64,000 nucleotides of DNA, taken from positions 4,452,857-4,516,856 of the forward strand of contig OY725491.1 of NCBI GenBank assembly GCA_963281255.1, given 5' to 3'. This document shows positions 1,961-62,130 of this stretch, piece by piece (the stretch's first letter is position 1; every line of letters begins with the position of its first letter). The notes beneath the pieces are model-generated. The model saw only the letters and a program-made list of their open reading frames with translations. It made no database searches and was not told the DNA's origin. This DNA comes from Aphrocallistes beatrix. Lineage: Eukaryota > Porifera > Hexactinellida > Sceptrulophora > Aphrocallistidae. Made by a program: the position numbers and the translations under genes.

Positions 1961-2646
1961 TTTACGCGGGCCCATATTACTGGTCTGTGCAAACCATGCC
2001 ATTACTAAAAGCTTGTATTGTGCCTAGCAGATGGCCGGACCAGGCGGACCGGGTGCTACGCCTATGATATATAATACAAGGTAATAACATTTTATAGTGT
2101 GAAAGTTACTAATCTCAATCTTTAGAGTCATTTAAAAGTCATGCTTACGAGATTTCAGAAGAGAAAAATCACGAATAAGTGACGACAAATCATTTTATGA
2201 GTTGGAGTTTAGAGAACGATCGTTCACCAGAACAGTTGGAGATCATGAGGCACAAGTAAATGAAAGCGCGGGGCCCGTGGCATATGCCACTTCTGCCACG
2301 TGCTTAATCCGGCACTGGTTCGAACCCGAATTCATCCAACCTTTTTGCCTCTCAATGGACAAGAGAATTGACCTCTGTCTGAAAAACAAAGATAGAAAAA
2401 TTAAGTATTGATTATTTTCAACAAATTTTAGATAAAATTATTCCTTTTGCTTCACTTTACTTATATATTAGCATATTAATAATCAAGGTAGCCCCTGTGA
2501 AATATAGTAGCAATTTGAAATCACTGCCAATAATTATGGGACATACTGTATATTGTTTTCAATATTTTTTCTGATTTTCCTATCTACTAAGTACGTATAA
2601 ACTGGGATATTATTTCTCAAGCTAGACAATATTTTTGCTCACTGTT

Positions 2647-22813: not shown

Positions 22814-22844
22814 AAGAAATTATTAATTTCAATGTTCAATGGTC

Positions 22845-25185: not shown

Positions 25186-25722
25186 TCCTTACTATTAAAA
25201 CTCGATTAATATTTGTATATATATATATATGTAACGAATTGATTGAAGAAACTGCCAGGCGCAGAAAGCTGATTTTTGGCATGTGGGAGTCTTTTGGCTA
25301 TGGCTCCAGTAAGTTCTGAGCTCAGAGCAAAATGTCGACTCATCATGGAATTATGACGTCATTGTCACATTTTTAAAAGTTAAGCAACACAGTTATTCGG
25401 GCATAACTCAGCCATTATAGGAGATAGAAGGCTGAAATTTTAATAGAATCTGTATACTAACACGTCTCACATATGATACAACTATCATCAAAAAATGATG
25501 ACTCATCACTTTGCTATGACGTCATCATTACTCATCCAAATTTAAAAAATTGACAAATTTGGTGTTTTTTCGGGTGATATCGATATTTAAACTAAGATGG
25601 ACATATTTAGAGATGCTCTCCCCTTATAATTAACCAATGTGACCCCAGGCGACCGAAGGGAGCCTCCGGCGGACACAAAGTGTTAGCCAGCCGCGCAGCG
25701 CAAGCAAGCGAAGCGCGCTTGT
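25186..25722 (+). mobile_element. Helitron-like element, full-length copy 4
   Basis: TCCTTACTATTAAAACTCG ... AAGCGCGCTTGT, with all family landmarks. It sits exactly where the left arm would read CCTATA|GTTTATA, as the right arm still does. The right arm therefore acts as the pre-insertion site and defines the element's two ends almost to the base. Confidence 0.8.
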
Positions 25723-26037
25723 GGTTTATAAATTGAAGAAATTGGTTTACTTCTACAAACTTACATTTTATCGTTATTATTCAATTCTAAACCAGTTGGT
25801 TCATTATTTTTCTCATCTATTCGTCTAATAGCAAGTCATTGTTTTATTTCAATTCAACTTTGAACAAAACACGTGTCACATTGGAAATCTCTTCGACTGG
25901 TAGGTTCCTAAATTAACAATTATAATTATTAGTACAGCTGTATCACTATTTTTAGGTTCCAAAATCACACTTTATATGTATATATTTATTAGATTCATTC
26001 TATAGATTTACCTTTTGATCTACAAAGATTTAGTGAT

Positions 26038-29000: not shown

Positions 29001-29811
29001 GTCTTGTAAGATCGATAAAAATTTTGATAAATTTAAGATAATGAATCAAATAAATGGTTCTCCTTCACGAAAAATTAAAAGAAAACTACTTAAAGAAGAT
29101 GAGTCTATAGCTCCTAAATTGAAATGCTGTAAAACAACTTTAGAATCAGATGTGTTAGTACCAGATCAAATTGAAATTCTGAATGATTTAGATGTATTAG
29201 CATTAGGTAGTATCGAGTTTATATTACCAGATTTTAAACCACTTTCATTAATGGGTCAAACGAAAATTTGTAAAGACTTAGGTTTAAATATTGTAAACCC
29301 AGTTATTTGTAGGAATGATAGTAACTGTAGAACTAATTTGAATGATTTAATTCCATCATTAATGTTTCCGGTTCCAATGGATGGGAATTGTTTATTTTCT
29401 TCCCTTTCTTATTTAATTACAGGCAGCATTGATAACCATCATCAAATGCGATTAATCATTACTGATAACATGAGTGGTAAATTTAAAGCTACATGTGATA
29501 AATTCATAAGAAATAAATATCCTCGATCAGTGATCAACTATCGAAATACAAAAGACTATATAACAAAGTCAAATATGAGGGGAACGAAAACCTGGGGTAC
29601 TGATCTTGAACTGTTTGCCGCCGCCCTAATTTTTAAGACTGATATTTGGGTTTATACAAATGATATGGGAAATAAATGGATGATTTATTCAGGAAAAGGT
29701 GCCAGTCTAGATCAAATAATTAAGGCCCCGCCTGCTAATGAAGAAGGATCTTTGTATATACGTCATGCGAGTAATCACTATGAACCTATATTAGTTTTAA
29801 ATGGGCGTTAA
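26038..29811 (+). CDS. Mutator-like DDE transposase fused to OTU cysteine protease
   Basis: 1257 codons, open throughout. The DDE core is visible: D609 in LNLDATGSLI, D684 in EMDYSWAMMH, a C729-x2-H732 motif (LCSAHIMH), and E905 in AIVENWFKIV. This layout is that of Mutator-like transposases. A basic linker (about 970-1060, KKRKQ, RKIKRKLLK) could target it to the nucleus. The C-terminal domain is OTU-like: DGNCLF with C1118, then WGTDLELFAAAL, and H1247 in ASNHYEPIL, so a deubiquitinase/cysteine protease activity is plausible. Codon 1 used here is TTG. The frame stays open upstream to about 26005, next to a good acceptor (TCTATAG), with a donor (CTG|GTAGGT) near 25898, so a first exon may exist. 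The first ATG is codon 83. Flanking arms show it is carried by a transposon. Residues 302-333 come from an in-frame palindrome. Confidence 0.85.
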   Translation: MNFARFLSFSALNEKLSTSPRDSNSIWGTLSKEIYGRNRISQRRKLYLKWTKNNFGIQTVLKRRFDIQSEDLRVCYSLDLLSMKIRTTLVSSAILRIICDRVNEKNSTKMDSSELVWESVEFDLHNDNLLIVCSSAASDIDTYNELKNRYQNVSLDSENDNGESVYHTFIHCESILWVDGCRYFDCIIRRIIPGFLQFVELNQLHSCEEFTSKLMTKLSGSLIERSPLVIMWILSTSELLNFENKLINGLFNKNYVLLSGSSMTKLTSWIKDLKIKVKDNGIEVVRALYTDCLVKLQGLHVSNSNSSSSAGGSTTSPVVDPLPAEDEEFEFDNLDLRSSIKVIDVQEQSSDLGSELDVSCSNNQGSGEFFLELDDWNNICYKDVAGKYRLDRNWTNIFARHIVEINPKCVLKFKHYWIKKSSSRKKNSPFFRAWAVCKFNNCLSFYFSIEDINKLIDNNMIPVKYEFKGVLSLAHSDCRTAHSRHLSSVEREKIGEILINNPASNTFYKQFTVKDNVEGFLHGNFTHLKSKECLRRVKSEFKSEYRFSNNDITDIIATKEYFRSFLTEVPVSGYIQYIAQEPFVVHLYSQNQMELFKLLQKKDIVLNLDATGSLISKPSKVTNKIYYYALTLQHPEFCTSPIPVAEMISSDHGTAEISHFLNKWVLTSKLVLHKALNITQVEMDYSWAMMHSTCIAFNKISIMSYLDKCWEFVDNLKSKLDITTVLHLCSAHIMHRVSYNLDKRYKIDKRLKHVILHVLGTMVQSTKINEIDLLFESLCYFLGSQFMLPIVSSSMLDLEPLVRGNIEINDKVPELIDEESVVKENSETYRQRSPFGKHFDKIYIKCLDQIRADKGSVSIKNVSYYPNLLEYLLTNYLPILPFWTGIIISKIRQDRIHTDSNAIVENWFKIVKYDIFKSEINIRPGDFIRTIYPHIEDRMASFKFAFQPLAHKIFKVKKRKQELVFNEEECKEEWGKRKKAKLSYIYPASCKIDKNFDKFKIMNQINGSPSRKIKRKLLKEDESIAPKLKCCKTTLESDVLVPDQIEILNDLDVLALGSIEFILPDFKPLSLMGQTKICKDLGLNIVNPVICRNDSNCRTNLNDLIPSLMFPVPMDGNCLFSSLSYLITGSIDNHHQMRLIITDNMSGKFKATCDKFIRNKYPRSVINYRNTKDYITKSNMRGTKTWGTDLELFAAALIFKTDIWVYTNDMGNKWMIYSGKGASLDQIIKAPPANEEGSLYIRHASNHYEPILVLNGR
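26940..27033. repeat. In-frame palindrome inside the transposase gene
   Basis: GTCGAATTCAAACTCCTCAT... (26940-26966) is exactly inverted at 27007-27033, and GGATCAACGAC (26971-26981) at 26989-26999, with a 7-base central loop. It keeps the reading frame and encodes a serine-rich then acidic linker (SNSNSSSSAGG...EDEEFEFD). The minus strand encodes almost the same peptide. Confidence 0.9.
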
Positions 29812-29899
29812 TTCATTTTATATAATTCTTTATTAGAGGGATTTCTTATGTTAAATATTTTATGATAGACACATTTAATTTAGGGCTGTTTAGATATAT

Positions 29900-30790
29900 T
29901 TACCAAGCAGTATACCCATACCCGGACAAAAATATTTGAAAATTTCGTTACTATTAATTCACGTATAAATATAGCACTATTAAATTTGTACTATTTTTAA
30001 GGATTCCTACTTCGTACGTTAAGGGATACAATTATTAAGATTTCAGATTCAAAATATACAAGACACATTCGAATTAATCAAAGTAGAGTATTTCTAATCA
30101 ACTAATCATACCCAACGTTTCAAATTATCAATCAGTACCACAGTGTGCCACATGTCATTTTTGGTGATGAATTACGTCAGGTGGCACAGGTTCATAGTTT
30201 TTCATTGATGGTGATCAATTTATTTGAAATTTTCAACTATGACTAATTCGAATGTGTAGATTTCGAATGAGGTAGACTCTTTGTTTTTCTTAGAGTTAGA
30301 ATTCATTTTCGTTCATGAAAAGATCCAAATTAGTGCTGGTTGTATGAGGAAGAATGAAGTGTTCAAATTCTGTCCCGATAGTGTATTACACTAACCGGAC
30401 AAAAGTGTTTGAACACTTCATTTTTCCCATACAACCAGTACTAAATATGGTAATTTCATGGAGGGAACCGCATCCAGTCCCTATGAGATTCCAAGAGTGA
30501 TTTCAAATTCGAAATCTACACATTCGAATACATCACAGTTGAAGATATCTAATTAATTTCTTACCCCAATGGTTACAAATATCAACCTGTGCCACCAGAG
30601 GTAATTCATCACCATCATAAAGTGTTTAAAATGGACAAGTGTCGGACAGAGTGTTACTGATTGATACTTTGAAAGTCGGGAATAAAGAATTGATCAGAAA
30701 TATTCTACAAGTACTGTGAGTCGAATGTGCATTTCAAATGTGAAATCCAATTAGTTGTATCCCTTAACGTTTCGAAGTATTCGTCTTCAT
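29900..30790. repeat. Complex foldback element between transposase and right TIR
   Basis: Outer arms: GTTAAGGGATACAA near 30017 against TTGTATCCCTTAACG near 30760, extending inward past TGTGCCAC blocks. Inner arms are around GGTTGTATGAGGAAGAATGAAGTGTTCAAA (30340) against TTTGAACACTTCATTTTTCCCATACAACC (30410). Related sequence, with CACTAACCGGAnAAAAGT and the same flanks, occurs at about 42420-42800 in the RUFY intron. It is non-coding. Confidence 0.55.
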
Positions 30791-30797
30791 TAATATA

Positions 30798-31032
30798 CCG
30801 TAAACTGGGGCGACTTTAGCCCTAAGAGGTGACTTTGTCCCACAATAGCAATATAACTAAAATACACTCAAACTAATAAATCAATGTAATCCCATTGCTA
30901 AATATGTTGAATGAACTCTCAATATATCCAAACGTATTTAAACCGCAATATTTTAAGTTTGAGTATATTTTATTAAAATTGCTATTGTGGGACAAAGTCA
31001 CCTCTTAGGGCCAAAGTCGTCCCAGTTTACGG
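30798..31032. mobile_element. Foldback MITE with ~90-base arms, TA target
   Basis: CCGTAAACTGGGGCGACTTT... is inverted as ...CGTCCCAGTTTACGG. The arms include GAGGTGACTTTGTCCCACAA against TTGTGGGACAAAGTCACCTC. TA flanks both sides. It is non-coding, and the transcript would form a long stem. Confidence 0.8.
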
Positions 31033-31231
31033 TACTCATTTTTGTCTTCCCTGGCCTGGAGTAGGACGATTTGTACAAAAAAATTTTAAATTTTAGAATA
31101 TGAATTTGAAATGAAATTTAGACATAATTAATATTTGTTATAAGGTAGTTGAATATTTTTTTGTAGGTAGTGCATTTCATTTTAGGAATGTTTACTGCAT
31201 CAGCAATTAGGATTGGATACATAAAATATCG

Positions 31232-31323
31232 GGCATGCCTAATTTACGGGACGGGAAGGCATCCCGTCCCGTAAATTAGGAATCTATATTTTTCGGGACT
31301 GTCCCGTAAATTAGGCATGCCCT
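31232..31323. mobile_element. 92-base MITE, probable 8-bp duplication
   Basis: GGGCATGCCTAATTTACGGGAC and GTCCCGTAAATTAGGCATGCCC are perfect inverted ends, and a second internal pair (ACGGGACGGG / CCCGTCCCGT) sits in the left half. Flanks AAAATATC and TAAATATC differ at one base and may be the target duplication of a hAT-like element. Confidence 0.65.
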
Positions 31324-32179
31324 AAATATCTGAATCACTGTATATGTCCTTTATTTGATCAATTCAGTAGTAATGGTGGGAGCACTTTATATTCACAGTG
31401 TCAAAAGTATTTGATTAACTCCATCTGATTCATTTGTGTCTAAATTAGTGTGGGAATATTTTCTAGAATAATTGATCACATTTAATCCTCAGTATGGTTG
31501 AAATCCACGAGGGATATGTACCCCAATTAGAGATAAATCTGAGCTATATACGAGCGAGATATACCTAAACTATAGTATGGGTTTTATCTTAGAAACATCT
31601 TTCCATTTTTGAGTGAGAGTTTGGAAGTGGAAGAAATATACAGTACAGAGCAATGGAAAAATTGTACAAACATCAATTCATCAATATAATTTTAAATGAC
31701 ATCCATATTGTTCCTTCTTCTTTTTTGCTTTATACTATTTTATTTATTTATATGTATTCCATATCATCTGTTATTATTGTTGTTACTTTTTATATTTATT
31801 CCATATTACTTATTATTTTTATTTGACTTATATACTGTATACTATCTATATTTTGTAAGCCAGGAGTCACTATCCTAAAGGTGCTGCTCGGTGAAATACT
31901 AAACCTGGTTCGAGTAGCTCGCATTGTCGAATTGTGAAAACCCTCCAGTGGGAAGTGAACTCATAACTGGTAGCATAAGTTGTTGTTGTTTTGTAATAAT
32001 TTAGCCTACGGGCAAATATTAAAGCTATTATCCTCAATTGAGACAATATATACGGGCAGAGTGGTATTATATAAGAAGAGTGCAGTGTAACACTAACATA
32101 TAGCATGAATATTAATTTAGGATGCAGTCTTATAAATAGGGGAGGGGGTACGCAGATTAATTAAGAATATAAACTATAG

Positions 32180-33109
32180 GAATTCAGAATGACGAAAATA
32201 GATAGATAGGGTGATGAGAAGATCCTTACTTGAGGTAGCTTATTTTAGAAATTTGATTGTGTTGTTTGATTGTGTTGAATTGATTTGTTTGATTGTGTTG
32301 AATTGATTTTGGATATCATCATCACACAAAAGAATACAAAACGTCAAGCTAAAGAATGTCATGTCTAGCTTCCAAATACGTATGCATACACATTGAATCA
32401 AATTCAACTTGGTTTTTTGACAATCCGAAAAATGAGTGAAATATAACGATCTAAATATGATAAATTATCAGCTAATATAGCTATATTATATGGAATTATC
32501 ACAAGTAAATGGTGTACTAATTCTAGAGATTAGTGGTAGAAACAAGTTCAGATAGAAACACCGTGACCAGATTTTAATAATACTCGGAATTTCAATGAGC
32601 CCATCGAAGCTGATTTGGGAGGGTATTGGAAATAAAATCAGATCAGAGGAGAGCACTGTGTTTCTTTTATCGAATTATGCCAAATTGGGATCGAACTAAC
32701 ACATATAGGATGTGATTTCTAGAATCGAAACATGCTCATTCGGTACATTAGCGGGGAGGGGGATTTGTCCGAACTCCAACTTTCGCAAGTCATATCTCAA
32801 AAATAAATTAGAATTTTTTCTTGAAATTTAAACTCAATAGGGCACTATCATCAAGAAGCTTGCTTACAAAGTTTGATAATTAAATTCTTATAGAAAGCGG
32901 ACCAAATAGTTGGTCAAGCTGTGCTCGGACATATTATATTATAAGTCATCGAAAAAAAAGATTTTAAAAAATCTTATCATGTTGAAAGAGAGCACTAATC
33001 CTCCTCTTTCGAATGGTGCCAGATTTATTTAAATCTGATAATGAGAAGTTGGTTAAATCTTTACTCAAACTGTGCTCAGTCGAATACTGCGCCAACTTCA
33101 CACTCGTAT
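32180..33109 (-). repeat. Right terminal inverted repeat of the Mutator-like transposon
   Basis: The inverse of the left arm, running from TAGGAATTCAGAATGACGAAA to CACTCGTAT. It lacks the Helitron-like insertion of the left arm and so preserves the original junction CCTATAGTTTATA (read on the minus strand). An open minus-strand frame covers its outer end and the flank (to 33257), but I do not regard it as a gene. 31330-32180 holds no gene I can support. Confidence 0.85.
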
Positions 33110-39700: not shown

Positions 39701-42700
39701 AATGATATAGTAAATGACTTTAATTTGGCATAAAAGTTCAGAAGAGAAGTTAATATATATTTTGCTGAAGTGAGGGGAGAAAAAAAACAAATTTCGGGGA
39801 GCAGGGTATAGATTACTCTGTATTTGTTTGGACCTAGAATATATATGGATGAAATGGAGGAAGTTGTAGACTCCCGAACTATTCTAGAAAGGCATTTGAA
39901 GTTTATATATTAATATTAAATAATATACACAAATATTTTTGAGCAGAAGTGTGCGTTAGACAGTGTCGCATCTCCGAGGTAATTTTGCATTGAAAATGTC
40001 ACAATCCAGTCTACTTAACTGCCGCATTTCTGAGGTTTAAGATGTATTATTTATATAGGAAAGTCAATCGGGAGAATTGTTTGTACCGTATCTCGGAGGT
40101 TGTCGTATATCAGAGGTGGAACTTTAGAGGTTTACTTATGTATTCAACTTTTTAGGACCGATACAACCATAGGCGTAAACTTAGCCTAGTTGTGGGGTTC
40201 TGGCTCCCCACAGCGCTTCAAAGTGTGAGGGGCGGCCCCCCACACTTATAACAGTTGGTTTTTAGTTGAAACTGTTTCACAGCATATTATTGATATCATC
40301 TCAGCATTAGTTATCTTTAGTAAATATATTTCAAAATATCCCGATTTACTTTTCATATTAAATTTCCTCAGCAATATTTTACATTCAATACTACTTTGAA
40401 AACTAGATCTGCTTATTTTGATGGATCGATTTAACATGATTTTGGGAAATGGCCCCCCACACTTTTAGAAAAAAAATCAAAAACTTTACGCCTATGGATA
40501 CAACCATTAGTTAGAGTGCAGTTAGACTATCAACCTAATTGTGGAGGTTATAATATCGTTATATGAAGTACAATAATATAGTTGTTTTAAGTAAATCCAC
40601 ATTGTTTATATTAATTAAGGGGATTAGCGCGAACGCAGATCCCCACTGTCAAAAATTTCGCCCCCGAGTTTCCTCATTTTGAGGAAATCGCAAGCATCAG
40701 CCATAAGCGGAGTGCAATGCTCAAGCCTCTTCTTGAGAGTAAAGCCTTCTTGATCACTTTATCTCCTGGGCCAGGTAAGTTAATATTTGATTAGGCGAAC
40801 AATTACTTATATTAATTTTACTTTCAAATATTATGGGTTGTTTTGAATATTAATCTAAGAAAGTGTAATTTCGATTAAACTTTTACTTATCAATTAGCGA
40901 ATTTTCACCATTTAACGACACGTATGCTGAACTCTTGAAATTGCATAATACTTGCATTTTAATAATTTATTTTACCTGATGCAGCTTTATATGGAACCTT
41001 TCCATGTATGTGTGTAGGTGTTTTGGAGGCAGTAGAGAGGGTATATCCAGATCTCTCTTCCAATCTAACCAGCGCCAAGACAATGCCAGGCATCAAGACA
41101 ATACTCGGCAAGTGCAGAGCCTGGATGCGTCTGTCTCTAATGAGCAAAAGCATCGCAGAAGATTTCAAATCCATCGTAGATAGCAAACAGCAGCTCACAG
41201 ACTGGTATGAACCGGATGCGATCATGTTCACGGAAGACGCTGTCGTTATCGCAGGACTGCTCCAGTCTCTCAATGCGTTGGATTATAATCTTACTCGGGA
41301 AGGAGCAGAGTTTGATGCTGATACACCTGTCATTGACTTCAGCATGTATTTGAAGGATGGGAATTATCTAGCTCGTCCTAAGACTTCAGACACGAAGTGT
41401 TCTCCAATGCATAACGCCGCTGATTCCACCAGTTCGAACGAGTTCTCAATGCTCTTAGACCAGAAGGCTTATTTGGAAGAATTGAACAAGAAGTTGCAGC
41501 AGGAATTGTCACAGGCTAACGCCGTGATAGAGCAGCAGGGATTGAGTATTCAGAGTCGGAAACGAGAGAAATCGGACTTAGAAGGGAAGCTTGATAATAC
41601 TGTCAAGGAACTTTCAGAACTCAGGTCTATTGTGGAGTCAGCTTCTCTGGTATGTGATTACTTTACTTTTACTTGCTAGGGCTAGGGGCCGTTCAAACGT
41701 TACGTGATGCAGAAATCCTCAAATCCAACACCCCACGCGATATAGGCATATAGCTTAACAAATTTGTTGCTAACACAAATTGTTGCCGACAACATGAATA
41801 TCTGAAATGTGAAAATGAGCGAACATAAATTGTACATAGCTTGAAAAGAATTGTGTACGAATTTCCATTACGACAGTGCTTCAACTCTAAAATATCATAA
41901 TACAGTCAGGGTCGCTTATTATGAATACCTTGGGGACCAAAAAGTCTGTTCATAATAGAGAGAATTCATATTAAGCGAACTTGACCTAATAAAAATCCTA
42001 TAGAACCTGTTGAATTGGGACCAGAGAGTTTGTTCACAATAAACGAATGTTCATATTAAGCGAGTTCATAATAAGCGAACCTGACTGTACGTGTATTATC
42101 ATAAAATTCCAATTAAAATACGTATTTCATTAAGTAACACAACGAGAAATCCCCTATCCACCTCTGTTACTTTTTGTCACATTTTATTATTCCTCCTCCC
42201 CTTGAAACGGTACTAACGTTTGAACATCCTCTTGGCGTAAAATAGTGTACAGTCGACTCTGCTTAATAGGGTCACATCGGTCAGAGGGCATTTTGTCCAG
42301 ATTAAGCAGAGAACCCTATTAATCGAAAATATAATTTGTAGTTTCTATGTGTGAGAGCCATTCTGGTCCTGCCAAAAGTGGCCCGATTAAACAGTGAACC
42401 TATTAAGCAGAGTCGACTGAATGCACTAACCGGATAAAAGTATTTGTAGACTCTACTATTTCCCATACAAATAGTATTAAATTGAATCTTTCCATGAAGG
42501 GAAATGTCTTAAAATTCTAAGAGATACTAAGAGCCTGGTTTAAGATTCGAAATCTACACATTCAAATTAGTAATACGTAGTTGAAGATTTCTATAAATTG
42601 CTCAATCCAATATGTAAATTATCAATCTGTGGCACAAGAGGTAATTTATTTCCATCATGTTTAGTGGTAAATAGAGACATATGTGACACAAGGTGGCAGT

Positions 42701-45700: not shown

Positions 45701-46134
45701 CAATATATTTACTATGCAATTTGGTTTTTTGCTTTTGGTATTTTGGAGAATTATCTAGCAAAAATCTACACCTTGAAAAATGTCCAGATACTCTTCAGAA
45801 ATTGAAGGTTCTTGCCTTTTCCTTTGTGTAGGTGTGTGCTGAGCAAGAGATTGCCTTGGTAGAAATGGGACAGTCTTTAAGTTCTGCTCATCAGAATCTG
45901 TCAGCAGTCAGGCAATCCAATACAAGAGCATGGGTGGATGACAACGCTACGAATGACTGTCAGAAATGTCAGAAAACGTTCACAATGAAACGGCGTAGAC
46001 ACCATTGTCGAAATTGTGGCGGTATATACTGTGGCATCTGTTCTGATAACAATTTTCCATTGGCTGCCTCTTCCAAACCAGTTCGAGTGTGTGATAATTG
46101 CTATTCAGTTTTGATAGAGAGTCTACCTCATTGA
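36760..46134 (+). CDS. RUFY: RUN and FYVE domain-containing protein, RUFY-like (6 exons)
   Basis: Spliced frame of 619 residues: exons 36760-37021, 41018-41649, 43116-43427, 44639-44814, 45366-45540 and 45832-46134, all GT-AG with matching phases. RUN domain, about residues 15-190: NLMNMIKLAIKALIESFMEV, FFIILEDIIRHRL, then MPGIKTILGKCRAWMRLSLM, DWYEPDAIMFTEDAVVIAGL and FDADTPVIDFSMYLKDGNYL. The middle, about 220-530, is heptad-rich coiled coil. The C-terminal FYVE finger has WVDD at 553-556, RRRHHCRNCGGIYC near 573-586 and VRVCDNC: the WxxD, RR/KHHCR and RVC signatures of PI3P binding. RUFY proteins are endosomal adaptors for Rab/Arl GTPases. It may lack an upstream exon, since the ATG follows GTAGCA. 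The exon 1 donor (G|GTTGGT) is weak. Introns carry several MITEs. Confidence 0.85.
38451..38774. mobile_element. Mutator-like MITE with 9-bp target duplication, copy 2
   Basis: Flanked by GAAATGATC on both sides (38442-38450 and 38775-38783). It starts GAATGGCGGACATTTC, and the other end carries inverted GGACGAAATGTCC units. Same family as 7332-7685 in opposite overall orientation; two different 9-base duplications confirm the family's target length. Confidence 0.8.
40168..40496. mobile_element. hAT MITE with 8-bp duplication GATACAAC
   Basis: GATACAAC at 40160-40167 and 40497-40504 frames ends CATAGGCGTAAA and TTTACGCCTATG. CCCCCCACAC / GTGGGG runs lie near each end. It is inside RUFY intron 1. 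The minus-strand frame in it is not a gene. Confidence 0.85.
41903..42087. mobile_element. pogo-like MITE, family A copy 2 (RUFY intron 2)
   Basis: CAGTCAGGGTCGCTTATTAT ... ATAATAAGCGAACCTGACTG with TA on both sides; 185 bases, same family as 7765-7947. Confidence 0.85.
42250..42419. mobile_element. pogo-like MITE with CAGTCGACTCTGCTTAAT ends
   Basis: CAGTCGACTCTGCTTAATAG against CTATTAAGCAGAGTCGACTG; TA precedes the left end. A decayed relative of the ends is visible at about 20295-20362. It lies in RUFY intron 2, followed by a relative of the 29900-30790 foldback (to about 42800). Confidence 0.7.
43737..44589. mobile_element. Probable hAT element in RUFY intron 3, with a nested MITE
   Basis: The left end CTGGGTTGTTTGATTTAAATCATGATT and the right end AAATCATGATTTTTATCAACCCTG are inverted versions of the CAGGGTTGATxxAAATC type seen in hAT elements. 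I did not find an 8-base duplication. A TA-flanked MITE (44004-44175) with ends CAGTAGAACTCGGTTAGTA / TAACCGAGTTCTACTG lies inside. Confidence 0.5.
44004..44175. mobile_element. TA-flanked MITE, pogo-like
   Basis: Inverted ends CAGTAGAACTCGGTTAGTA and TACTAACCGAGTTCTACTG with TA at both borders; 172 bases, no frame. A decayed neighbour with GTTAATACGAAC / GTTCGTATTAATAAC lies at about 43825-43985. Confidence 0.75.
45081..45243. mobile_element. pogo-like MITE, family A copy 3 (RUFY intron 4)
   Basis: CAGTCAGGTTCGCTTATTAT ... ATAATAAGCGACCCTGACTG, shorter than its relatives (163 bases). TA is on the right, with AT on the left. Opposite orientation to copy 2 as judged by the interior. Confidence 0.8.
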
Positions 46135-47603: not shown

Positions 47604-50600
47604 ATGAATTGTAGTCATTGCAACACGAAATTTCTAGAATTGGATGAGATCTGCTTCCTAGATTTAGCTCCGCAATCCGTGCATCTCATCGTTAAGCCGG
47701 AGAGACGCGTGTTCGCTCAGCAGAACCTCGCAGGACAATTTGAGGACAAAAGGGTTTCTCGAGTAACATGTACTGAACCGAGTTGCAAGTGCAATCTTGG
47801 TAAGAAGATTCCACTAGGTCCTTCTAATGCCATGGTAATAGCGTTTGGAACTGATAAAGTACATTTGTTTGGTCGTCGCCTCACTAAGAAAGACAAATGG
47901 TATGGATTGTTCAATTCGTCTCCTTATAATAAAATTGAGCAACGGTCTAAAAAGAATTTTTATGGAGAAAATGCATCTGATTTTTCTGACACCTCTAAAC
48001 CTCTCCCAGTCATTGAGTACGATCCAATTATCTTCCCAAACCTAGACAATCCCCTCCATTCCAAGTTTGACGACGTTCTAAAGTCTGATGTTGTTCCTTG
48101 GGATTTCCAGGTCACCTGCTATATCGAAGCTCTCCAGAGGGATCTGATCGTTGTTCTGCCGACTGGGTCTGGGAAAACATTGATTGCAGCCTTAGTCGCG
48201 GCTAAATTTCATCAGTTAAATCCTAATCTAATGACATTGTTTGTCGTAGACCGTATCCCGTTAGTGTACCAGCAGGGAGATTCAATCAGTTTGAATACTC
48301 ACATGAAAGTTTGTTATTTATGCGGGGAGAGTAATACTAAACTGATACGTAGGAAATTGCGTGATGCGGAGTACGATATGCTCGTCACTACTGCCGGAGC
48401 TGTGCTGAACATATTCGAGATGGATGAGTTGAGTTTAAAGGCGTTTTCTTTTATTATTTTAGATGAGTGCCATCATGCTAGTGGCCACCATGATTATGCC
48501 AAGATTTTAAGTTTACTCGAAAACTTTGAAGCGTCCAAACGTCCGAGAATTCTAGGACTCACTGCGTCTCCTATTTCCCCCCAAAATGATGTGCATACTA
48601 CCGCGAAACTCGTGCATGTTTTCAGACAGATGTTTTTCAATGCTCCGATATGCCATAACATCAACCTTGGAGCATTCTCATTCGCACAACAGAATATCTC
48701 TGTCGTTCCTGTTCCAGATGGAGATTCGGCATTTATAAAGTGTATCGGTGCTATTATAGCAGAAATGATTGGCGTTGCTGACTCCATCAATCAAGATAGA
48801 GGCGAGGTAGTCATTAAGAAAGAGCAGTGGGATGATCATTATTGCATGGTACGTTTGAAAATGGCTTTAGGTAACCTTAGCAATATGCGTAAAAGTGACC
48901 ATACGAAGCAACTTATTCAACTGATGAGGCGCTACTGCGCTGCGCTAGAGATAGCTGATTTGGCTGGATTACCCTATGCCCAGAAAGTGCTTAAAGGTTT
49001 GCCAGTCGCCAGCAAACTGCACGACTGTCCTGACCAATCTCCTAGATTGAATAAGTTAATGGAGGTGTTAAGAAAGCACTCGAAATATTCTAAAATTCTA
49101 ATTTTCGTTCACACCAGGCAAGCCGGAGAAGTCCTCACTAACATCCTACAAGAAGATAAGGAAATTGCTGAGGCATTTTCACCTCTTAAGATATTCGGGC
49201 ATGGAGGAGAGCTAGGAATGAGCTGGGATTACGAGCAGGAAGATGTGATACGAGCCTTCCAAGGGAAAGACTGTAATCTAATAGTCAGCACGTCTGTGTT
49301 AGAGGAAGGAATAGATGTACCTGCTTGCGATGTGGTGATAAGGTTTGATGGCATCAAATCTGTGATTTCCTTCGTACAGAGCAAGGGTAGAGCTAGAAAA
49401 ATAGGCGCGAGTGAATTTATTCTCATTCTATCTGAGCGCGAAAAGCAGAAGTACAAAGATGTCGAACGCAGAGAGGAGATTTTGAAAAAGACATTACATT
49501 ACGTTGACCGACATTCAGATATTGACATTCCGTCTAGGAAGACTCTCTCAATTCAGCTTTCTCTTAGGACAGATTTGTTTGACAATAAGGCACCTCAGTA
49601 CAAAACTCTTACTGAGTGTGCTATTGAATTCTACGTTTGCGGGACTCATGAATTGGACAATATGCAAGAACAAATAGCTGATGCTCTTTATATGAAAGGA
49701 TTTCTGTGGTTGAAGCGTATTGATATTGATGCACGAGGTTCAAATCGGAAATCTAAGGGGATTTTCCCGTCTGAAGATAGTTTGATAATCTGTGGTGTGA
49801 AGTCTGGCGATGTATACAAATCATACCTACACATGACTGTAAATTGGAACTTTTATTTGGCAGATGTGAATAATTCTCCTTTTACTTGGACCAAGTTTGA
49901 GCTTAATCTGCCTAGCACTCAATCTAGCTGGCCTGTAGAGAAACTGTTGTGGGGATCTTTCATCGACAAATCTTCAGTGTCCATTGCTCAGCAGCACACT
50001 CAGGAAATGACAGTACAATTTACTCCCAAGCGTTGTATGAAAGTTAGCTTCTCCGATTCTACCATTGAGATAGAGATAGACTACACTACACTACATCACT
50101 TCATGCTGACACATTGGCAGGAATCCAGTGTAACATTGTTTTTGCTCTTAGCTAGCTGTCCCATAGTCCGAATGTTGAATGATGATGCGACGTATACTCG
50201 ATTCACTTGCCATGAATTCCACTTTCTTTCTCACTTCGCTCAGTGTCCAGTGTTTGCCTTAGTGCTACCTTATGACAACAAAACCAACTGGTTCCAAATA
50301 TGGTCCTTACTCCATACTGCCAGTTCATTTCCGGTTTCCGTATTTGATTCTAAGATTAATATGATAGATATTAGCTCGGATAATTCTGCTATATCCAATC
50401 TCTCACAGCATCCATCTTTTAATGAGAAAGCTATGCAGGACTGTATCTGGGCTTTATCTGTGTTGAAGTCGACCCGCCGAATTTGCATATCGCAAGAGAC
50501 AGTTCAGTTTATCAGCTCACGCATCTCGCAAGCAGACCTCAGCAAACTCAGCTTTATAACTGCAATTATGTATAAGATATCTACGTCCTATCCATCTACT

Positions 50601-53600
50601 GAGATTTCTCACTATTTCATACCTCTTTGTGAATTTATCATACATGAATTAGAATTGTCCAATTCCTTCCTAAACACATCCTCCGATTTGCCATTCAATT
50701 ACCGTTACATTGAGAGCGCCATTATAACTCCATCACGCATCATATGCTTGCCTCCTGTAGCGCTACAGTGCAATCGCCTGTATAGGAAATATCCTAAGGA
50801 GAGATTCATATTAGTTGCGTTCCGTGATGAACAATCTCAACGTTTGCTGAGTAAAGACGCAATTGAACGTGTGAAACAAGTCTTGAAAAATGGATTCGAA
50901 ATAGATGGGAATCATTTCCACTTTCTCCTATCGAGTACTAGCCAATTACAGAATCAACGTGCTATATTCATCCAAAATAGCGATACAGAGTCTCCTGTCG
51001 TGAAGTTGAATAAAATTCGTTTTGAGCTGTTAGGTGGAACAGTGATACGAGATGAAATCAAGTTCTTCTCTCGTCTCGGCCTATTTTGTACGTCTGACAC
51101 ACCAACGGTGTCTATCGATGTTAAAGATGTCGGTTGCATCGATGACTTGAAAGCTAGTAATGGCTTGTTGCTAACAGACGGGAATGGAAAGATACGAAGT
51201 TCTCTCGCTTTGAAATTAGTTGAGACGTTTGGCTACACAGATATCCATCCGCCATCTGCCCTACAGATAAGATTGGCCGGGTATAAAGGCGTTCTGACTT
51301 TAGTTGATGAAAAATGTGATCAAAATTTCATTAAAAATTCTAAGTGTACGATACTAGTTAGGCCTTCCATGAAGAAACTAGAGTGGACTGATTCCATTCT
51401 TAATATTGTGAAACCTGCCTCTTACAATCCATTTTTCATCAACAAGGAAGTTATTAATGTCCTGACGAGTTTGCGTGATCCAGTCGGTGGATGGGATCCT
51501 GCTCCTTTTATTAAGCAATTGCATGATACAGTCCTTTCTCAATACGGTTTGATCTTAAGAGATATCAGTGTTGCTGAAAAGTATTTGGCTAAGAATCTAC
51601 AAAACTATGTCAAATCCACCTCAACGTCTTTTGACATAATAACTGAGCGCTACTTTATCTCACTCTTGCGTTGTATTTACAACTTCCATGTGAAGAATCT
51701 CATTTCTAAAGTTCGTATCCCAGTCGAGCAAGGCTGCTTTTTAATGGGAATCCCAGATCCAGTCGGGGTACTAAATGAAGATGAGATATTCGTACAGATT
51801 GAAATTAATTCTGACTCCCCATCGAGTGCCAATACTAGCTTGATAAATGGTCCAGTTCTGCTATACAAGCATCCCTGTCTTCACCCAGGCGACTTACTGA
51901 TCCTAACGGCAGTCGATAGACCTGAGTTGAGGCATCTTAAGAATGTTGTCATCTTCCCAATTCGCGGGCAAACCTCACTACCTTCTTCAACCAGCGGGGG
52001 GGATCTGGATGGAGATGAGTATGCAATCATCTGGCAGCCAGAGCTCGTACCACCGCCACACTGTCAGCATCCTCCATTGAACTACGCTGAAATAGCAGAG
52101 AGAGCTTTGCAGCAACAAGATCAAGCGGATGACAGAGTTCCTCTACAAGATGATGCTAGTAACACACAGGAGCGTCTATCTGAAGCTTATTGTCGAGTGA
52201 TCTCGAATGATTCTGTTGGTAGAATTGCAACTTATCACATGGCAGTCTGTGATCAGCTGGAGGATGGAGCTTGTGATGAGTTGGCTATTAAAACGGCAGA
52301 GGCGCAATCTCTCTCAGTTGATTTCCCAAAAACGGGGATTGCACCGGTGATTCCTCACAAAGTTAACCAAATGATTCAAGATGATGGTTTCCCTGATTTC
52401 ATGGAGAAGGATGGTTCAAAGCGATACCCTTCTAAGAAGTTATTAGGTGAGATATACCGCCGCACTAAGGCAGTTTGTTATGCGACAGATGAGTGGAGAA
52501 GTATTCTTAACTATTCCGGGACACACCTGCCCCAACAGAGACTATCTCACGACTTCTCAGACCATTCCCTCTACGTGTCTGGCTGTGAAGGTTACATGGA
52601 GGAAGCTAAGAAGACGTATATGGACTATTCCAACTCTTTTCAGCGAATAATGACGTCATTCGGGATAGAAACTGAAGCGGAAGTTGTGCTAGGCTTGATA
52701 ATACAATGCCATCCAATGGTAGGAGCTGACAAGTGGAAAACAGCACAAGTGCTTAAGGCATTAGTCCGAGACCTCTTCGACCAATTCCGTGATGTCTTCT
52801 TCCAAGGAATTACTCGTGATGGACCTGAGTGCTTGAAGAAGGCATCTGCATGGTATATAACTGCCTACACCCGCCATACAGATTCTCCGTCTTTCCATTC
52901 ATTCCCTTGGTTGGTGGGAGATTTCCTGTGTAAAATTGCATCTAAGGTAGAGCGTGGCAAATCAGATATACATCTTTCTATCGGTGAAACAGCGAGAAAG
53001 TATATTTCTGAAAACAGTGATTTCATTATGACTATAGTACAGTCCAAATTAGCCTCCTTGCCTTTAGTGGAATCTGCTGTACTGAAGGTTTCACTGCTGA
53101 AGATGTTCTCTCTCACTTGCTTTGGGTCAGTGTCTTTGTTTTTATGTGAATCTCTTTCAGATCTCGACATTTCAGTGGGCTTGACTCCTGCATCACTTGA
53201 CGCAATGTTCACTTCAGAACAAGACAAATTGAAATTTAATGGACTAACCTTGCAGCATCAGAGAATCCACGTGCTATCAACTTACATTTCTCCAGCTTTA
53301 GAAGAAGTTACGCACAGTAAAGAAGAAAAGTATGATGCTCTCGTTCCGGTGATTTCATTTCTGATGGATTCACCATTCGATTCTAACAACCAAGTTAACG
53401 TTGATATCACAGTGCAGAGTGACGGAGTATCTAAATGTCAGCATATCCTGCAGTTGTATCGTGATACTGGTGGGGTCTTCTTCGGTTGGTTGTGGATACT
53501 TGTCCATTGGGCTCGTGATGTCGGGATTCTCAAGTGCCAAGCTTTGGTTGATCATGCTGGGTTGGTTTTATCTGCAGAATTTCAAGCTTTAGCTCTGTTC

Positions 53601-55355
53601 GTATACGATGAAATGACTTGTAAGCCTAAACACCAACCCTTGTCTGATGAACTCCTGACAGCTAGCCTCTTGCTTGACCAGCTCAAAGACGGAAAGTTTG
53701 ATTCTGTATTAGGCTCGATGTTAGAGGAATTTTTCTGGTTAGGAGCCAGAATAACATCAAGCCAGGATTGCATTGTGTATGAATGGCCTATTGAGGGCAG
53801 ACCAACTCATTCTATAAAAGGCGCTATTCTAAAGCAAATTTCCACTTTGTTATTTCAAGCTTGGCACTGTATTGTGTTTACACGTGATTTGAATAAGTTA
53901 TTCGAACGAAATGATGCACAATTAACATTGAAAAAACGCCTATCCTATAATGTTAGTAATAGAATACGGTCTTCACAAGATTTCCATAAAATGAGACTTT
54001 CGAACATGACAGGAGCCGTCGTCTCAATCGAAGAATCCGGCCGGCATTTACTCGTATGTGCTAATGGATCTGCGAGCTCGATTCATAAAATTTCAGTTGA
54101 ACTGTCTCGGTTGGAAAGGATGACATCTCATACCAAAAAATTCTTTCCAATTTCAAATAAATACTTGATGGAGGATAGTTTTATTATCGTACTCGCAAAC
54201 CAAACCCTGAACACACGCATAAAGCTCAAATCCTTTGAGAATAACTGTTTCAAGCTGTACCATTCTGACAATGAGCTGAGTTATCCTGTGTATGCCAACG
54301 AAACCATTGATCCCAATTGGATTTCTAACGCAAGGTTAAGAATACAGTTTATGGTGCTAGATCAACTGCGCAAGTTCCCTCTTAATCGCCCTGGTCTTTT
54401 GGAGAAATTATTTCTAAAGACTAGATTTGGGTTTTTCTATTTGATAGATGCGAATAAGAGCATCCGTTCAGTCAGATCACTCTCCTTAGAAGACTTGGAG
54501 CGCTTCTTCTTGAAAACGAAAAAGTATCGAAAACAGGTCACTCGCGAGTTTAATGTTCACCCCACGGCGAATGCTCCTGACGGCCTTAATCCTCTCGCTC
54601 CCGTCTATAATCCTCTCCTGCGAAAGTCTTATAAGCCTAAGTTAGATAAGGATCATGCCAGTTGCTCGTTCTGTCCTGGAATTAAAGGAATTGTTACTAA
54701 TGACGACATTCAAACTGTTCAATTTACTTACATTTCTGCATTAGAAAAATGTGGATTTGCACAGTGCCATCACACGAATACTTTATCTTGGAAGCTGGAC
54801 TTGCAAGCATCAAAGAATCATGACATCAGAATTAAATTGGACGATAAAATGCAAATCATCGATATAAACGAGCGTCCTCTCGTTTGGATTTTAGCCACGA
54901 TTATAGCAGACCGGAATGTGCCTAATCCTAGCAAGGTATACGATACTAGGATGCGAATTGAGTCGACGGAAGAAGTTGCGCAAGATTCTGAGCTGTACAA
55001 GCATATTTTCCCTCGCGGAATGGTTGATCAGTTGATTTCACTGGATAAAGATGGGCACCCGGTTATGTGTGACTACGTTAAGAACAGGGTTAAACTGCTC
55101 CGTCATATCAAACAGATGATGCTATTCCAGCGTAACAACGTGACAGCTAAGGTATCCACAGGGACAGAGTACAGCGGAAAGTGTATGGATCTAGGGAGAC
55201 ATTTCTGTGAGCTGAGTTTAGTGCATAGTGAGCATGAACTGAGAGCTGCCATAGCGGCTAGCGGTGGGAAGAGTGGGGAGATATTGTCTATTGCTGCAGA
55301 TGCCATAGATATCTCACTTAAATTGTCAGAGGCCATCTCTATATCGTCTCCATAG
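47604..55355 (+). CDS. RLR-CTD-like module + DECH helicase + RNA-dependent RNA polymerase fusion
   Basis: One exon, 2583 codons; an in-frame TAG directly precedes the ATG, so the start is bounded. Residues 1-125: zinc module with C3-x2-C6 and C56-x4-C61, followed by a KDKWYGLFNSSPY segment, spaced like the RIG-I C-terminal RNA-end sensor (C810/C813/C864/C869). Residues 165-640: Dicer/RIG-I helicase with LPTGSGKT (185-192), VDRIPLVYQQ, DECH (287-290), LTASP (319-323), a helical insertion (about 375-470), STSVLEEGIDVPACD (562-576) and FVQSKGRARK (590-599). About 660-1050: RdRP head region with an RRM-like stretch. About 1058-1800: QDE1-type RdRP (RLYRKYP, LTDGNGKIR at 1190, KHPCLHPGDLLILTA, SGGDLDGDEY with D1467/D1469/D1471, FMEKDGSKRYPSK). 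It probably unwinds or senses RNA and copies it into dsRNA for small-RNA or antiviral silencing. Residues about 1800-2583 are unassigned. No RNase III or Argonaute domain is present. Confidence 0.93.
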   Translation: MNCSHCNTKFLELDEICFLDLAPQSVHLIVKPERRVFAQQNLAGQFEDKRVSRVTCTEPSCKCNLGKKIPLGPSNAMVIAFGTDKVHLFGRRLTKKDKWYGLFNSSPYNKIEQRSKKNFYGENASDFSDTSKPLPVIEYDPIIFPNLDNPLHSKFDDVLKSDVVPWDFQVTCYIEALQRDLIVVLPTGSGKTLIAALVAAKFHQLNPNLMTLFVVDRIPLVYQQGDSISLNTHMKVCYLCGESNTKLIRRKLRDAEYDMLVTTAGAVLNIFEMDELSLKAFSFIILDECHHASGHHDYAKILSLLENFEASKRPRILGLTASPISPQNDVHTTAKLVHVFRQMFFNAPICHNINLGAFSFAQQNISVVPVPDGDSAFIKCIGAIIAEMIGVADSINQDRGEVVIKKEQWDDHYCMVRLKMALGNLSNMRKSDHTKQLIQLMRRYCAALEIADLAGLPYAQKVLKGLPVASKLHDCPDQSPRLNKLMEVLRKHSKYSKILIFVHTRQAGEVLTNILQEDKEIAEAFSPLKIFGHGGELGMSWDYEQEDVIRAFQGKDCNLIVSTSVLEEGIDVPACDVVIRFDGIKSVISFVQSKGRARKIGASEFILILSEREKQKYKDVERREEILKKTLHYVDRHSDIDIPSRKTLSIQLSLRTDLFDNKAPQYKTLTECAIEFYVCGTHELDNMQEQIADALYMKGFLWLKRIDIDARGSNRKSKGIFPSEDSLIICGVKSGDVYKSYLHMTVNWNFYLADVNNSPFTWTKFELNLPSTQSSWPVEKLLWGSFIDKSSVSIAQQHTQEMTVQFTPKRCMKVSFSDSTIEIEIDYTTLHHFMLTHWQESSVTLFLLLASCPIVRMLNDDATYTRFTCHEFHFLSHFAQCPVFALVLPYDNKTNWFQIWSLLHTASSFPVSVFDSKINMIDISSDNSAISNLSQHPSFNEKAMQDCIWALSVLKSTRRICISQETVQFISSRISQADLSKLSFITAIMYKISTSYPSTEISHYFIPLCEFIIHELELSNSFLNTSSDLPFNYRYIESAIITPSRIICLPPVALQCNRLYRKYPKERFILVAFRDEQSQRLLSKDAIERVKQVLKNGFEIDGNHFHFLLSSTSQLQNQRAIFIQNSDTESPVVKLNKIRFELLGGTVIRDEIKFFSRLGLFCTSDTPTVSIDVKDVGCIDDLKASNGLLLTDGNGKIRSSLALKLVETFGYTDIHPPSALQIRLAGYKGVLTLVDEKCDQNFIKNSKCTILVRPSMKKLEWTDSILNIVKPASYNPFFINKEVINVLTSLRDPVGGWDPAPFIKQLHDTVLSQYGLILRDISVAEKYLAKNLQNYVKSTSTSFDIITERYFISLLRCIYNFHVKNLISKVRIPVEQGCFLMGIPDPVGVLNEDEIFVQIEINSDSPSSANTSLINGPVLLYKHPCLHPGDLLILTAVDRPELRHLKNVVIFPIRGQTSLPSSTSGGDLDGDEYAIIWQPELVPPPHCQHPPLNYAEIAERALQQQDQADDRVPLQDDASNTQERLSEAYCRVISNDSVGRIATYHMAVCDQLEDGACDELAIKTAEAQSLSVDFPKTGIAPVIPHKVNQMIQDDGFPDFMEKDGSKRYPSKKLLGEIYRRTKAVCYATDEWRSILNYSGTHLPQQRLSHDFSDHSLYVSGCEGYMEEAKKTYMDYSNSFQRIMTSFGIETEAEVVLGLIIQCHPMVGADKWKTAQVLKALVRDLFDQFRDVFFQGITRDGPECLKKASAWYITAYTRHTDSPSFHSFPWLVGDFLCKIASKVERGKSDIHLSIGETARKYISENSDFIMTIVQSKLASLPLVESAVLKVSLLKMFSLTCFGSVSLFLCESLSDLDISVGLTPASLDAMFTSEQDKLKFNGLTLQHQRIHVLSTYISPALEEVTHSKEEKYDALVPVISFLMDSPFDSNNQVNVDITVQSDGVSKCQHILQLYRDTGGVFFGWLWILVHWARDVGILKCQALVDHAGLVLSAEFQALALFVYDEMTCKPKHQPLSDELLTASLLLDQLKDGKFDSVLGSMLEEFFWLGARITSSQDCIVYEWPIEGRPTHSIKGAILKQISTLLFQAWHCIVFTRDLNKLFERNDAQLTLKKRLSYNVSNRIRSSQDFHKMRLSNMTGAVVSIEESGRHLLVCANGSASSIHKISVELSRLERMTSHTKKFFPISNKYLMEDSFIIVLANQTLNTRIKLKSFENNCFKLYHSDNELSYPVYANETIDPNWISNARLRIQFMVLDQLRKFPLNRPGLLEKLFLKTRFGFFYLIDANKSIRSVRSLSLEDLERFFLKTKKYRKQVTREFNVHPTANAPDGLNPLAPVYNPLLRKSYKPKLDKDHASCSFCPGIKGIVTNDDIQTVQFTYISALEKCGFAQCHHTNTLSWKLDLQASKNHDIRIKLDDKMQIIDINERPLVWILATIIADRNVPNPSKVYDTRMRIESTEEVAQDSELYKHIFPRGMVDQLISLDKDGHPVMCDYVKNRVKLLRHIKQMMLFQRNNVTAKVSTGTEYSGKCMDLGRHFCELSLVHSEHELRAAIAASGGKSGEILSIAADAIDISLKLSEAISISSP

Positions 55356-55512
55356 CTTTACTTAACTTATAACTATTATAGTTTCTGTTAGGTAGAACAG
55401 TCCTTTAGGACCGCTTTGGCTCTGCTCTTATATTCTGTTATTTGTCTGTCCACGCACTTAATGTCTTATTTATTTGAATAGTAATAGTTTTATAGTTATT
55501 TTCATACTCTCA

Positions 55513-55518
55513 ATTAAA
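55513..55518 (+). terminator. Possible polyadenylation signal of the RdRP gene
   Basis: ATTAAA about 155 bases after the stop, the first good hexamer variant downstream. It is weak evidence in AT-rich sequence. Confidence 0.35.
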
Positions 55519-55656
55519 TTATATTGTATGCTATCTATAGTAATATTTGTTATCACTTCGAAAGAAATCATGAATGTTTTGTGTTTTGTTGATCAGTGTT
55601 AGTAGCATTGAAATGTATATGCTCCTTACTCTACCATCATTGGTAGTTTTAACTGT

Positions 55657-55749
55657 AGAATGCCCAGCATTTATATGGCTTCAGTGCCATATAAAATGGC
55701 TGGGAGACATCCGCGATATCGGGAACACTGTGTCCCCTCTGGGCATTCT
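55657..55749 (+). ncRNA. Possible structured RNA, three-way junction
   Basis: AGAATGCCCAG (55657-55667) pairs with CTGGGCATTCT (55739-55749), enclosing two arms. One is CATTTATATGGC against GCCATATAAAATG with a 6-base loop. The other is GGGAGACA against TGTGTCCC with an inner TCCG/CGGGA stem. It lies 300 bases after the RdRP stop and 100 before the next ATG, so it could be a 5' UTR element, an independent RNA or a tiny foldback. I recognise no known RNA family; in particular it lacks hammerhead core bases. Confidence 0.4.
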
Positions 55750-55848
55750 TTAAGGCTATGAAATTTATAAAATAAGATTAAGAGCGTTTCAACTTTAAAA
55801 ATTAGTACTTCAAAGTTAGGTCAGTTAGTGTGAACTTGCATAGTGTTG

Positions 55849-56346
55849 ATGGCAGAGCAAGAAAAACTAGAATACTTCTACGTAACGTGTGTCATGCACG
55901 GTATGGTGGTAGAAGCTATTGACTGTTGGTTTAACAATACTTATATCGCGTTGAGGGAGAAAGAGACTCCACCGAAGCATTCACAACTTTGGGCATTCAT
56001 TCCGCATAAAACTCACAAGGATTGGGTCTACATCATAAGCAGAGACGAAAGGTACGCTAATTTGGTCTGGACTATAAGCGGAATATCCACGAATGGCTAC
56101 ATCAAATTGGTGGAAATGGGTCGAGGACACAAACAAGCCTGGCAGTACTGTGAGGTGTTTCCTCCAGCTTCATTTGGTGGGGCATTCTTGTTCAATAAAG
56201 TATATCCACATTGTGTGCTCACTGTGTGGAAGCCAGATGAAATGAGAGGTCAAGATTGGCTGTATGCTGATGCTGGCAGCCTTTTGCTGACCTTTCAGAG
56301 ATTTTGGAAAGAACCTGTAGACTTAAAGGAAGAAAATGATGACTAA
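55849..56346 (+). CDS. Small beta-trefoil (QxW, R-type lectin-like) protein
   Basis: 165 residues from the ATG at 55849, a single exon with an acidic end (KEENDD). Three QxW signatures, SQLWAF (45-50), KQAWQY (95-100) and GQDWLY (134-139), are spaced 50 and 39 residues apart, with hydrophobic turns such as YIISRDERYANLVW and GYIKLVEMGRG between them. That is the pattern of one beta-trefoil of the R-type lectin fold, which commonly binds glycans or serves as a protein-interaction module. There is no signal peptide, so it is probably intracellular, and there is no fused catalytic domain. It follows the RdRP gene on the same strand at 0.5 kb, but nothing shows co-transcription. The fold assignment rests on the QxW repeats alone. 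Confidence 0.65.
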   Translation: MAEQEKLEYFYVTCVMHGMVVEAIDCWFNNTYIALREKETPPKHSQLWAFIPHKTHKDWVYIISRDERYANLVWTISGISTNGYIKLVEMGRGHKQAWQYCEVFPPASFGGAFLFNKVYPHCVLTVWKPDEMRGQDWLYADAGSLLLTFQRFWKEPVDLKEENDD

Positions 56347-61696: not shown

Positions 61697-61815
61697 TATG
61701 TATGTATGTATGTATGTATGTATGTATGTATGTATGTATGTATGTATGTATGTATGTATGTATGTATGTATGTATGTATGTATGTATGTATGTATGTATG
61801 TATGTATGTATGTAT
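61697..61815. repeat. (GTAT)n microsatellite, about 29 units
   Basis: An uninterrupted GTAT/ATGT tetranucleotide run of about 118 bases. It creates long spurious frames (MYVCMYVC... / HTYIHTYI...) on both strands. Confidence 0.95.
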
Positions 61816-61824
61816 TGTAGGGTT

Positions 61825-62130
61825 TCAGTTGGGGGGGCCCCCCCATTTCTATCAAATTTTGGATCCCATTTTGGGGGGCCCCTTCAAATTGGGGGGGGAC
61901 CCCCCCAATTTGTATTATTATTATCCTCGATTTGGGGGAGCCCCCCCAAATTTGGGGGGTACCCCCCAATTGTTTCTATTTTAGCAGTCTATATGGGGGG
62001 TCCCCTCCAGAATTGGGGGGGACCCCCCCAAATTAACATTTAGATTTCTGCCTAGGGGTACCCCCCCAAATTTGGGGGGCCCCCCCCGATTTTATCATTA
62101 GTCATATTTTAATTTGGGGGGGGTCCCCCC
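61825..62130. repeat. Reiterated GGGGGG(A/T)CCCCCC palindromes, left arm
   Basis: About ten short palindromes of the type AAATTTGGGGGGTACCCCCC, separated by 20-40 AT-rich bases. The last ~95 bases (62036-62130) recur in inverse complement at 63900-64000. This makes it one arm of a foldback structure whose other arm runs past the window. Confidence 0.75.

Follow-up and report, generated by a model that had tools for sequence, protein, structure and literature searches.

A five-module RNA-dependent RNA polymerase from a glass sponge, with a terminal nucleotidyltransferase and a predicted RESC-like domain

The stretch of Aphrocallistes beatrix DNA analysed here (64,000 nucleotides, the window) carries a single-exon gene for a protein of 2583 residues, P0001 (47604..55355, + strand), in which a zinc module, a Dicer-type helicase, a cellular RNA-dependent RNA polymerase (RdRP), a terminal nucleotidyltransferase and a predicted RESC1/RESC2-like domain follow one another. 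The modules are supported by sequence and predicted structure. On balance the protein is probably an end-selecting, self-tailing synthase of double-stranded RNA (dsRNA) that would amplify the silencing of uncapped RNA, since an RdRP, a tailing enzyme, a dsRNA motor and two possible end-holders in one chain are best explained by an amplifier. No description of the transferase and RESC-like parts was found in the open-licence literature; the fusion of a helicase to an RdRP is already known.

Modules of the protein

The first-pass annotation had described a single uninterrupted frame joining an RNA-end-sensor-like module, a helicase and an RdRP. The frame was borne out by two frame listings, in which the stop-to-stop stretch and the ATG frame have identical coordinates, and by a whole-genome scan that recovered the gene again. 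A stop codon immediately 5' of the ATG fixes the N-terminus of the protein, and most of the relatives shown start with MxC or nearly so. GC content is about 40-43% across the gene (2-kb windows, 48001-56000), and a frame of 2583 codons at this composition, with five such frames in the genome, is not due to chance.

Residues 1-125 (47604..47978, +) form a beta-rich zinc module that is RLR-CTD/Yippee-like according to predicted structure, the profiles of relatives and conservation. Its C-x2-C/C-x4-C pattern, which had been noted earlier and is real, consists of C3, C6, C56 and C61, and all four are kept in each of the 37 aligned rows (of 46 in total) that have letters at the four positions. Ten-residue pLDDT means for residues 1-120 of the predicted model are 80-94. 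A single-sequence search with the window protein gave no Pfam match to the module, RIG-I_C-RD included; profiles emerged solely with relatives, and among 20 rows picked by hand from 36 aligned, Yippee-Mis18 was matched by 14 (best 5.6e-5) and RIG-I_C-RD by 6 (best 1.5e-4). The cysteines of the proposed sensor stand, and the module may be either an RLR-type or a Yippee-like domain. The C-terminal domain of RIG-I binds 5'-triphosphate RNA, and the sponge module is a candidate RNA-end sensor.

The helicase, of superfamily 2 (SF2) and Dicer/RLR type with a helical insertion, occupies residues ~150-640 (48051..49523, +) and is defined by Pfam, motifs and predicted structure. It matches DEAD (170-327, 6e-21), ResIII (176-324, 2e-22) and Helicase_C (482-600, 4e-15) and contains the motifs GKT, DECH and QxxGRxR, with GKT and DExH each kept in 42/42 aligned rows; the DExH core motifs and the insertion together assign it to the Dicer/RLR type. 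No CARD, PAZ or RNase III domain is among the Pfam matches of the window protein, which therefore lacks the tandem RNase III and PAZ domains of a Dicer.

Residues 671-1040 (49614..50723, +) comprise a linker and the N-terminal region of the RdRP, as judged from the secondary structure of the model. The strand order of residues 671-765 reads as beta-alpha-beta-beta-alpha-beta and may be RRM-like, and confidence in the model is low at residues 982-1040. VIA-align, which works from matches supplied by Foldseek and hence depends on it, gave lists dominated by the helicase and the transferase, leaving room for other folds in the zinc module and linker. The RdRP domain (PF05183, E 5e-125) spans residues 1041-1620 (50724..52463, +) and includes the catalytic motif DLDGD at residues 1467-1471 (52002..52016, +), with DxDGD present in 46/46 aligned rows. 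PF05183 and DxDGD together identify a cellular RdRP of QDE-1/RDR type; the profile search of Pfam thus returned both the DECH helicase and the DLDGD polymerase that had been read from motifs.

The C-terminal third, which the earlier reading had missed, holds the two remaining modules. Residues ~1785-2107 (52956..53924, +) are a terminal nucleotidyltransferase of the Cid1/TUT/GLD-2 type, in which G1841 and S1842 are followed by D1853, D1855 and D1934; this GS...DxD arrangement with its third aspartate lies in a polymerase-beta-like fold, as seen in the sequence and the predicted structure. The GS and the three aspartates are kept in 43 of the 45 rows with letters, and the triad is lost in P0059 and P0060, showing that loss can happen. 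Transferase Pfam scores of the window copy are 20.0-22.7 bits against a curated cut-off of 27, and a whole-genome scan with PF22600 found matches in all five long RdRP frames, two of them above the cut-off. A PDB profile search built from the five transferases of this genome gave no significant match, the best being Minor Editosome-Associated TUTase at E 0.41.

Residues ~2189-2583 (54168..55352, +) are predicted to adopt the imperfect beta-barrel, triphosphate-tunnel fold of RESC1/RESC2. The resemblance is one of structure, suggested by a single AlphaFold model (whole-model pTM 0.52) and structural alignment; ten-residue pLDDT means in this domain are 74-97, except for 32-67 at model positions 551-590. 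The best-matching chain is one that we take to be RESC1, the partner that does not respond to phosphate, which counts against the proposed triphosphate binding. Pfam RESC1_2 matched neither the window copy nor its four paralogues, its best E among relatives being 0.22 (1/13 members, the 13 rows having been chosen from 40 aligned), and PDB profile searches with the domain returned no RESC1/2 match. Whole-genome scans with PF25477 and PF11648 were blank, as were their controls, and are hence uninformative. Within the predicted tunnel, R2449 is present in 43/43 and K/R2500 in 42/43 of the rows with letters and K2516 is conserved; an acid is found at 2399 in 29/43 and E/D2536 in 43/43.

The weak profile matches could mean that the protein belongs with the ordinary helicase-RdRPs of Dictyostelium, oomycetes and Hydra, a fusion already described (PMC4791657), and that its transferase and tunnel are inherited scaffolds devoid of present activity. 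The transferase scores below the cut-off and the seemingly incomplete metal-binding acids of the tunnel fit such a history. However, neutral decay would not leave the GS and triad so widely intact in an alignment where identity to the window protein falls to 22%, and two paralogues in the same genome exceed the cut-off, making this account unlikely.

Family, paralogues and genomic setting

The source assembly has 100.5 Mb in 28 contigs, and nine RdRP loci were found in it, each an uninterrupted frame; they are spread over six contigs (C1, C4, C6, C7, C11, C13). The five-module type accounts for five loci on five contigs, with lengths, counted from the first ATG, of 2583, 2589, 2636, 2576 and 2587 aa. 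An artefactual assembly join of separate genes, raised earlier as a possible refutation, has a negligible probability and is rejected because the same module order recurs at these five loci and in relatives on other contigs. The four paralogues (P0006, P0013, P0014, P0044) are just 40-43% identical to the window copy overall (43-47% in the transferase, 32-36% in the C-terminal domain), so the copies are old.

The alignment of 46 rows (P0001-P0025, P0041-P0060, P0091) includes five from the source genome and omits the Dicers, shorter RdRPs and RdRP-SF1 proteins among the matches. Relatives from Oopsacas, Hydra, an oomycete, a liverwort and other eukaryotes align over most of the length. The first-pass annotation had proposed a search for the same order in invertebrate genomes, and the alignment shows it in Oopsacas (P0048, P0050), Hydra (P0053, P0054), Riccia (P0024), proteins from EukProt/JGI and, N-terminally partial, Aphanomyces (P0057); P0021 and P0056 have dsRNA-binding domains in addition. 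The two Hydra proteins are ~30% identical to the window protein over nearly its whole length. The nearest named relatives are two proteins of Oopsacas minuta, itself a glass sponge (PMC10280926).

In the tree, a clade of 34 rows with good support contains the window copy, the two O. minuta proteins and 31 others. The window copy joins P0002-P0005, paralogue L020 joins P0007, P0010 and P0041, and paralogues L019, L021 and L023 cluster together on long branches, so that the duplications look old. With long branches at several deep points and some joins marked unsafe, the tree is compatible with both inheritance and transfer. The sole matches in GTDB were two "Deltaproteobacteria" MAG contigs (L001, L002) with a eukaryote-type RdRP stretch; these bins may hold eukaryotic DNA, probably as contamination.

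The four further RdRPs of the genome are single frames of 2013-2069 aa: L022 (C11), L024 (C13), L025 (C1) and L026 (C13). L022 and L025, the two of the four that were scanned with Pfam, have an N-terminal AAA_28 kinase-like domain, then the RdRP, then an SF1-type AAA_11/AAA_12 helicase, and a pattern search found no DxDGD in L026. Cellular RdRPs fused to AAA_11/AAA_12-type helicases also form a separate class among the matches (P0103-P0107, P0109, P0110), with Viral_helicase1 matches in P0105, P0106, P0107, P0109 and P0110; P0109 is from Dreissena.

The window has the look of animal DNA: directly upstream of the RdRP gene, separate open stretches encode a RUN domain (40966-41676, +) and, further on, a FYVE finger (45832-46131, +), and are probably exons of a single spliced RUFY-like gene. 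Just 3' of it is a 165-aa frame (55849-56343, +) that has no Pfam match and a single database match, to an ENA contig at 99% identity. Elsewhere the window contains an element of ~8.9 kb (24252-33109) whose inverted arms are 99-100% complementary, suggesting recent movement, and which encloses a frame of 1272 codons (25993-29808) whose last part encodes an OTU-type cysteine protease domain. There are also a 405-nt inverted repeat (18465-18869 / 20482-20886) with 100% complementary arms 1.6 kb apart, an exon-like frame of an MFS sugar transporter (22181-22819, -), a THAP-domain frame (2626-3024, +) and short tandem repeats (61697-61975) that read on either strand as repetitive open frames (MYVC repeats).

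Nine uninterrupted RdRP frames on six contigs, repeats near the window copy and neighbouring genes that look spliced might be taken for signs of a mobile or viral family that spread recently and left single-exon copies on several chromosomes. The divergence of the paralogues argues against recent spread, and the Dicers and several Argonautes are single frames too. Among the 25 inverted-repeat pairs shown, of 35 found in the window, the arms nearest to the gene are ~8.9 kb away on its upstream side and ~3.8 kb away on its downstream side, although some dispersed pairs span it. A viral origin was rejected, as two peptide patterns run against viral contigs gave 89 pattern matches and 0 confirmed relatives. 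Such a family is thus highly improbable.

Proposed action in RNA silencing

RNAi in nematodes requires RdRPs. A small-RNA role is reported for a tick RdRP (PMC10062562), and the function of animal RdRPs outside nematodes is described as open by authors who speculate that those of Branchiostoma act outside RNAi (PMC6396948). Nematostella also possesses helicase-RdRPs (PMC4791657), but secondary siRNAs went undetected there (PMC12768352), which, like the view on Branchiostoma, counts against an amplifying role. RdRPs are reported in Porifera (PMC6085071), and the demosponge Amphimedon is stated to have none (PMC6211395). The terms RdRP, Dicer, Argonaute and RNAi are absent from the main text of the Oopsacas genome paper (PMC10280926).

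From the domains and catalytic residues of the sponge protein we infer a ligand, an order of steps, a partner Dicer, a target and a biological role. RNA would be captured by its ends, through the RLR-CTD-like zinc module at the N-terminus and the RESC2-like tunnel at the C-terminus, with a preference for uncapped 5'-triphosphate RNA. The terminal nucleotidyltransferase would add untemplated nucleotides to the 3' end of the template, creating a start site from which the RdRP would then copy the tailed RNA into dsRNA. The RIG-I/Dicer-type helicase would move along or hold this dsRNA and hand it to Dicer, amplifying the silencing of viruses or transposons. Tails added by RDE-3 recruit RdRPs in C. 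elegans (PMC9276528). The RDRC of fission yeast consists of Rdp1, Hrr1 and the poly(A) polymerase Cid12 (PMC2965749), and by analogy Cid12 may make the start site there as RDE-3 does.

The main silencing enzymes are present in the genome, which has three intronless Dicers (L027, L028, L029; 1508-1522 aa) and 24 Piwi-domain matches, eleven of them in frames of at least 477 aa. The Dicer helicase is recognisable by Pfam in two of the three and a mere trace in the third. Further RNase III matches occur as a pair at C2:1.22 Mb, where the frames are short, and singly at C1:0.32 Mb, and four Piwi frames are clustered at C13:444.9-460.0 kb. The Dicers and many Argonaute/Piwi genes are long uninterrupted frames though neighbouring genes look spliced.

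The tailing and tunnel parts adjoin, and RESC1-RESC2 binds small 5'-triphosphate RNAs (PMC10201420); both points fit a protein that makes and keeps short 5'-triphosphate RNAs resembling trypanosome guide RNAs or the 22G-RNAs of C. elegans. The RdRP would start such RNAs, the transferase tail them and the tunnel protect them, and neither long dsRNA nor Dicer would be involved. A Dicer/RLR-type helicase and a zinc module suit dsRNA, however, and two of the Dicers in the genome have a helicase that can be recognised; this alternative is accordingly quite unlikely, somewhat more so than inactive inherited scaffolds. For the favoured dsRNA synthase, the presence of a tailing enzyme, a motor and what may be end sensors suggests that its job is probably to choose foreign-looking RNA and turn it into dsRNA, and that silencing steps done elsewhere by separate proteins are built into a single machine. 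The RdRP question is testable in Hydra, where two such proteins exist.

Comparison with known systems

According to PMC4791657, helicase-RdRP fusions occur in oomycetes and Dictyostelium as well as in the animals Hydra and Nematostella; like the sponge protein, they place a Dicer-type helicase ahead of a cellular RdRP. The earlier claim that no described animal protein has all three parts was thus only partly right: animal fusions of helicase and RdRP are published, and for the further parts no description was found. The available text of PMC4791657 covers helicase, helicase-C and RdRP only, and "nucleotidyl" is absent from it. No account of an RdRP-nucleotidyltransferase fusion or of the RESC-like part was found in the open-licence literature, although older reviews may cover them. 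In Hydra, Nematostella and Dictyostelium the fusion coincides with Dicers that lack a helicase (PMC4791657), whereas here two of three Dicers keep it.

RIG-I-like receptors, Dicer and Dicer-related helicases have the same helicase core with its insertion, and the RLR zinc module may belong to the same fold group. In the receptors the helicase is followed by a C-terminal RIG-I_C-RD; the sponge protein lacks this arrangement, its zinc module preceding the helicase and an RdRP following it. Cid1, TUT4, TUT1 and GLD-2 are transferases of the same type, which here is fused C-terminally to an RdRP. In RDRC, RdRP, helicase and non-canonical poly(A) polymerase form one working unit, as they may in the sponge protein. 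All three domain kinds lie in one chain here, and the helicase is of the SF2 Dicer type, unlike the SF1-type Hrr1/ZNFX-1 helicase. In RDRC they are three separate proteins, of which Hrr1 is orthologous to ZNFX-1 (PMC9276528).

RESC1 and RESC2 form a mitochondrial heterodimer reportedly lacking sequence relatives beyond kinetoplastids; RESC1 is inert to phosphate and RESC2 is the binder, the pair co-elutes with guide RNA solely when this has a 5'-triphosphate, and depletion destabilises guide RNAs (PMC10201420). Typical of this pair are basic tunnel residues that hold the 5'-triphosphate and the loss of two of three metal acids. The term "RNA-dependent RNA polymerase" is absent from the available text of a 2026 review of editing complexes (PMC12936278). 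Tentatively, and with more doubt than confidence, RESC1/RESC2 might descend from the C-terminal domain of an ancient all-in-one enzyme, kept in sponges, Hydra, oomycetes and a liverwort, that selects 5'-triphosphate RNA, tails it and copies it, in which case a part of trypanosome editing would have been recruited from RNA silencing. If confirmed, the RESC-like domain would give the kinetoplastid guide-RNA holders relatives elsewhere, within the RNA-silencing machinery.
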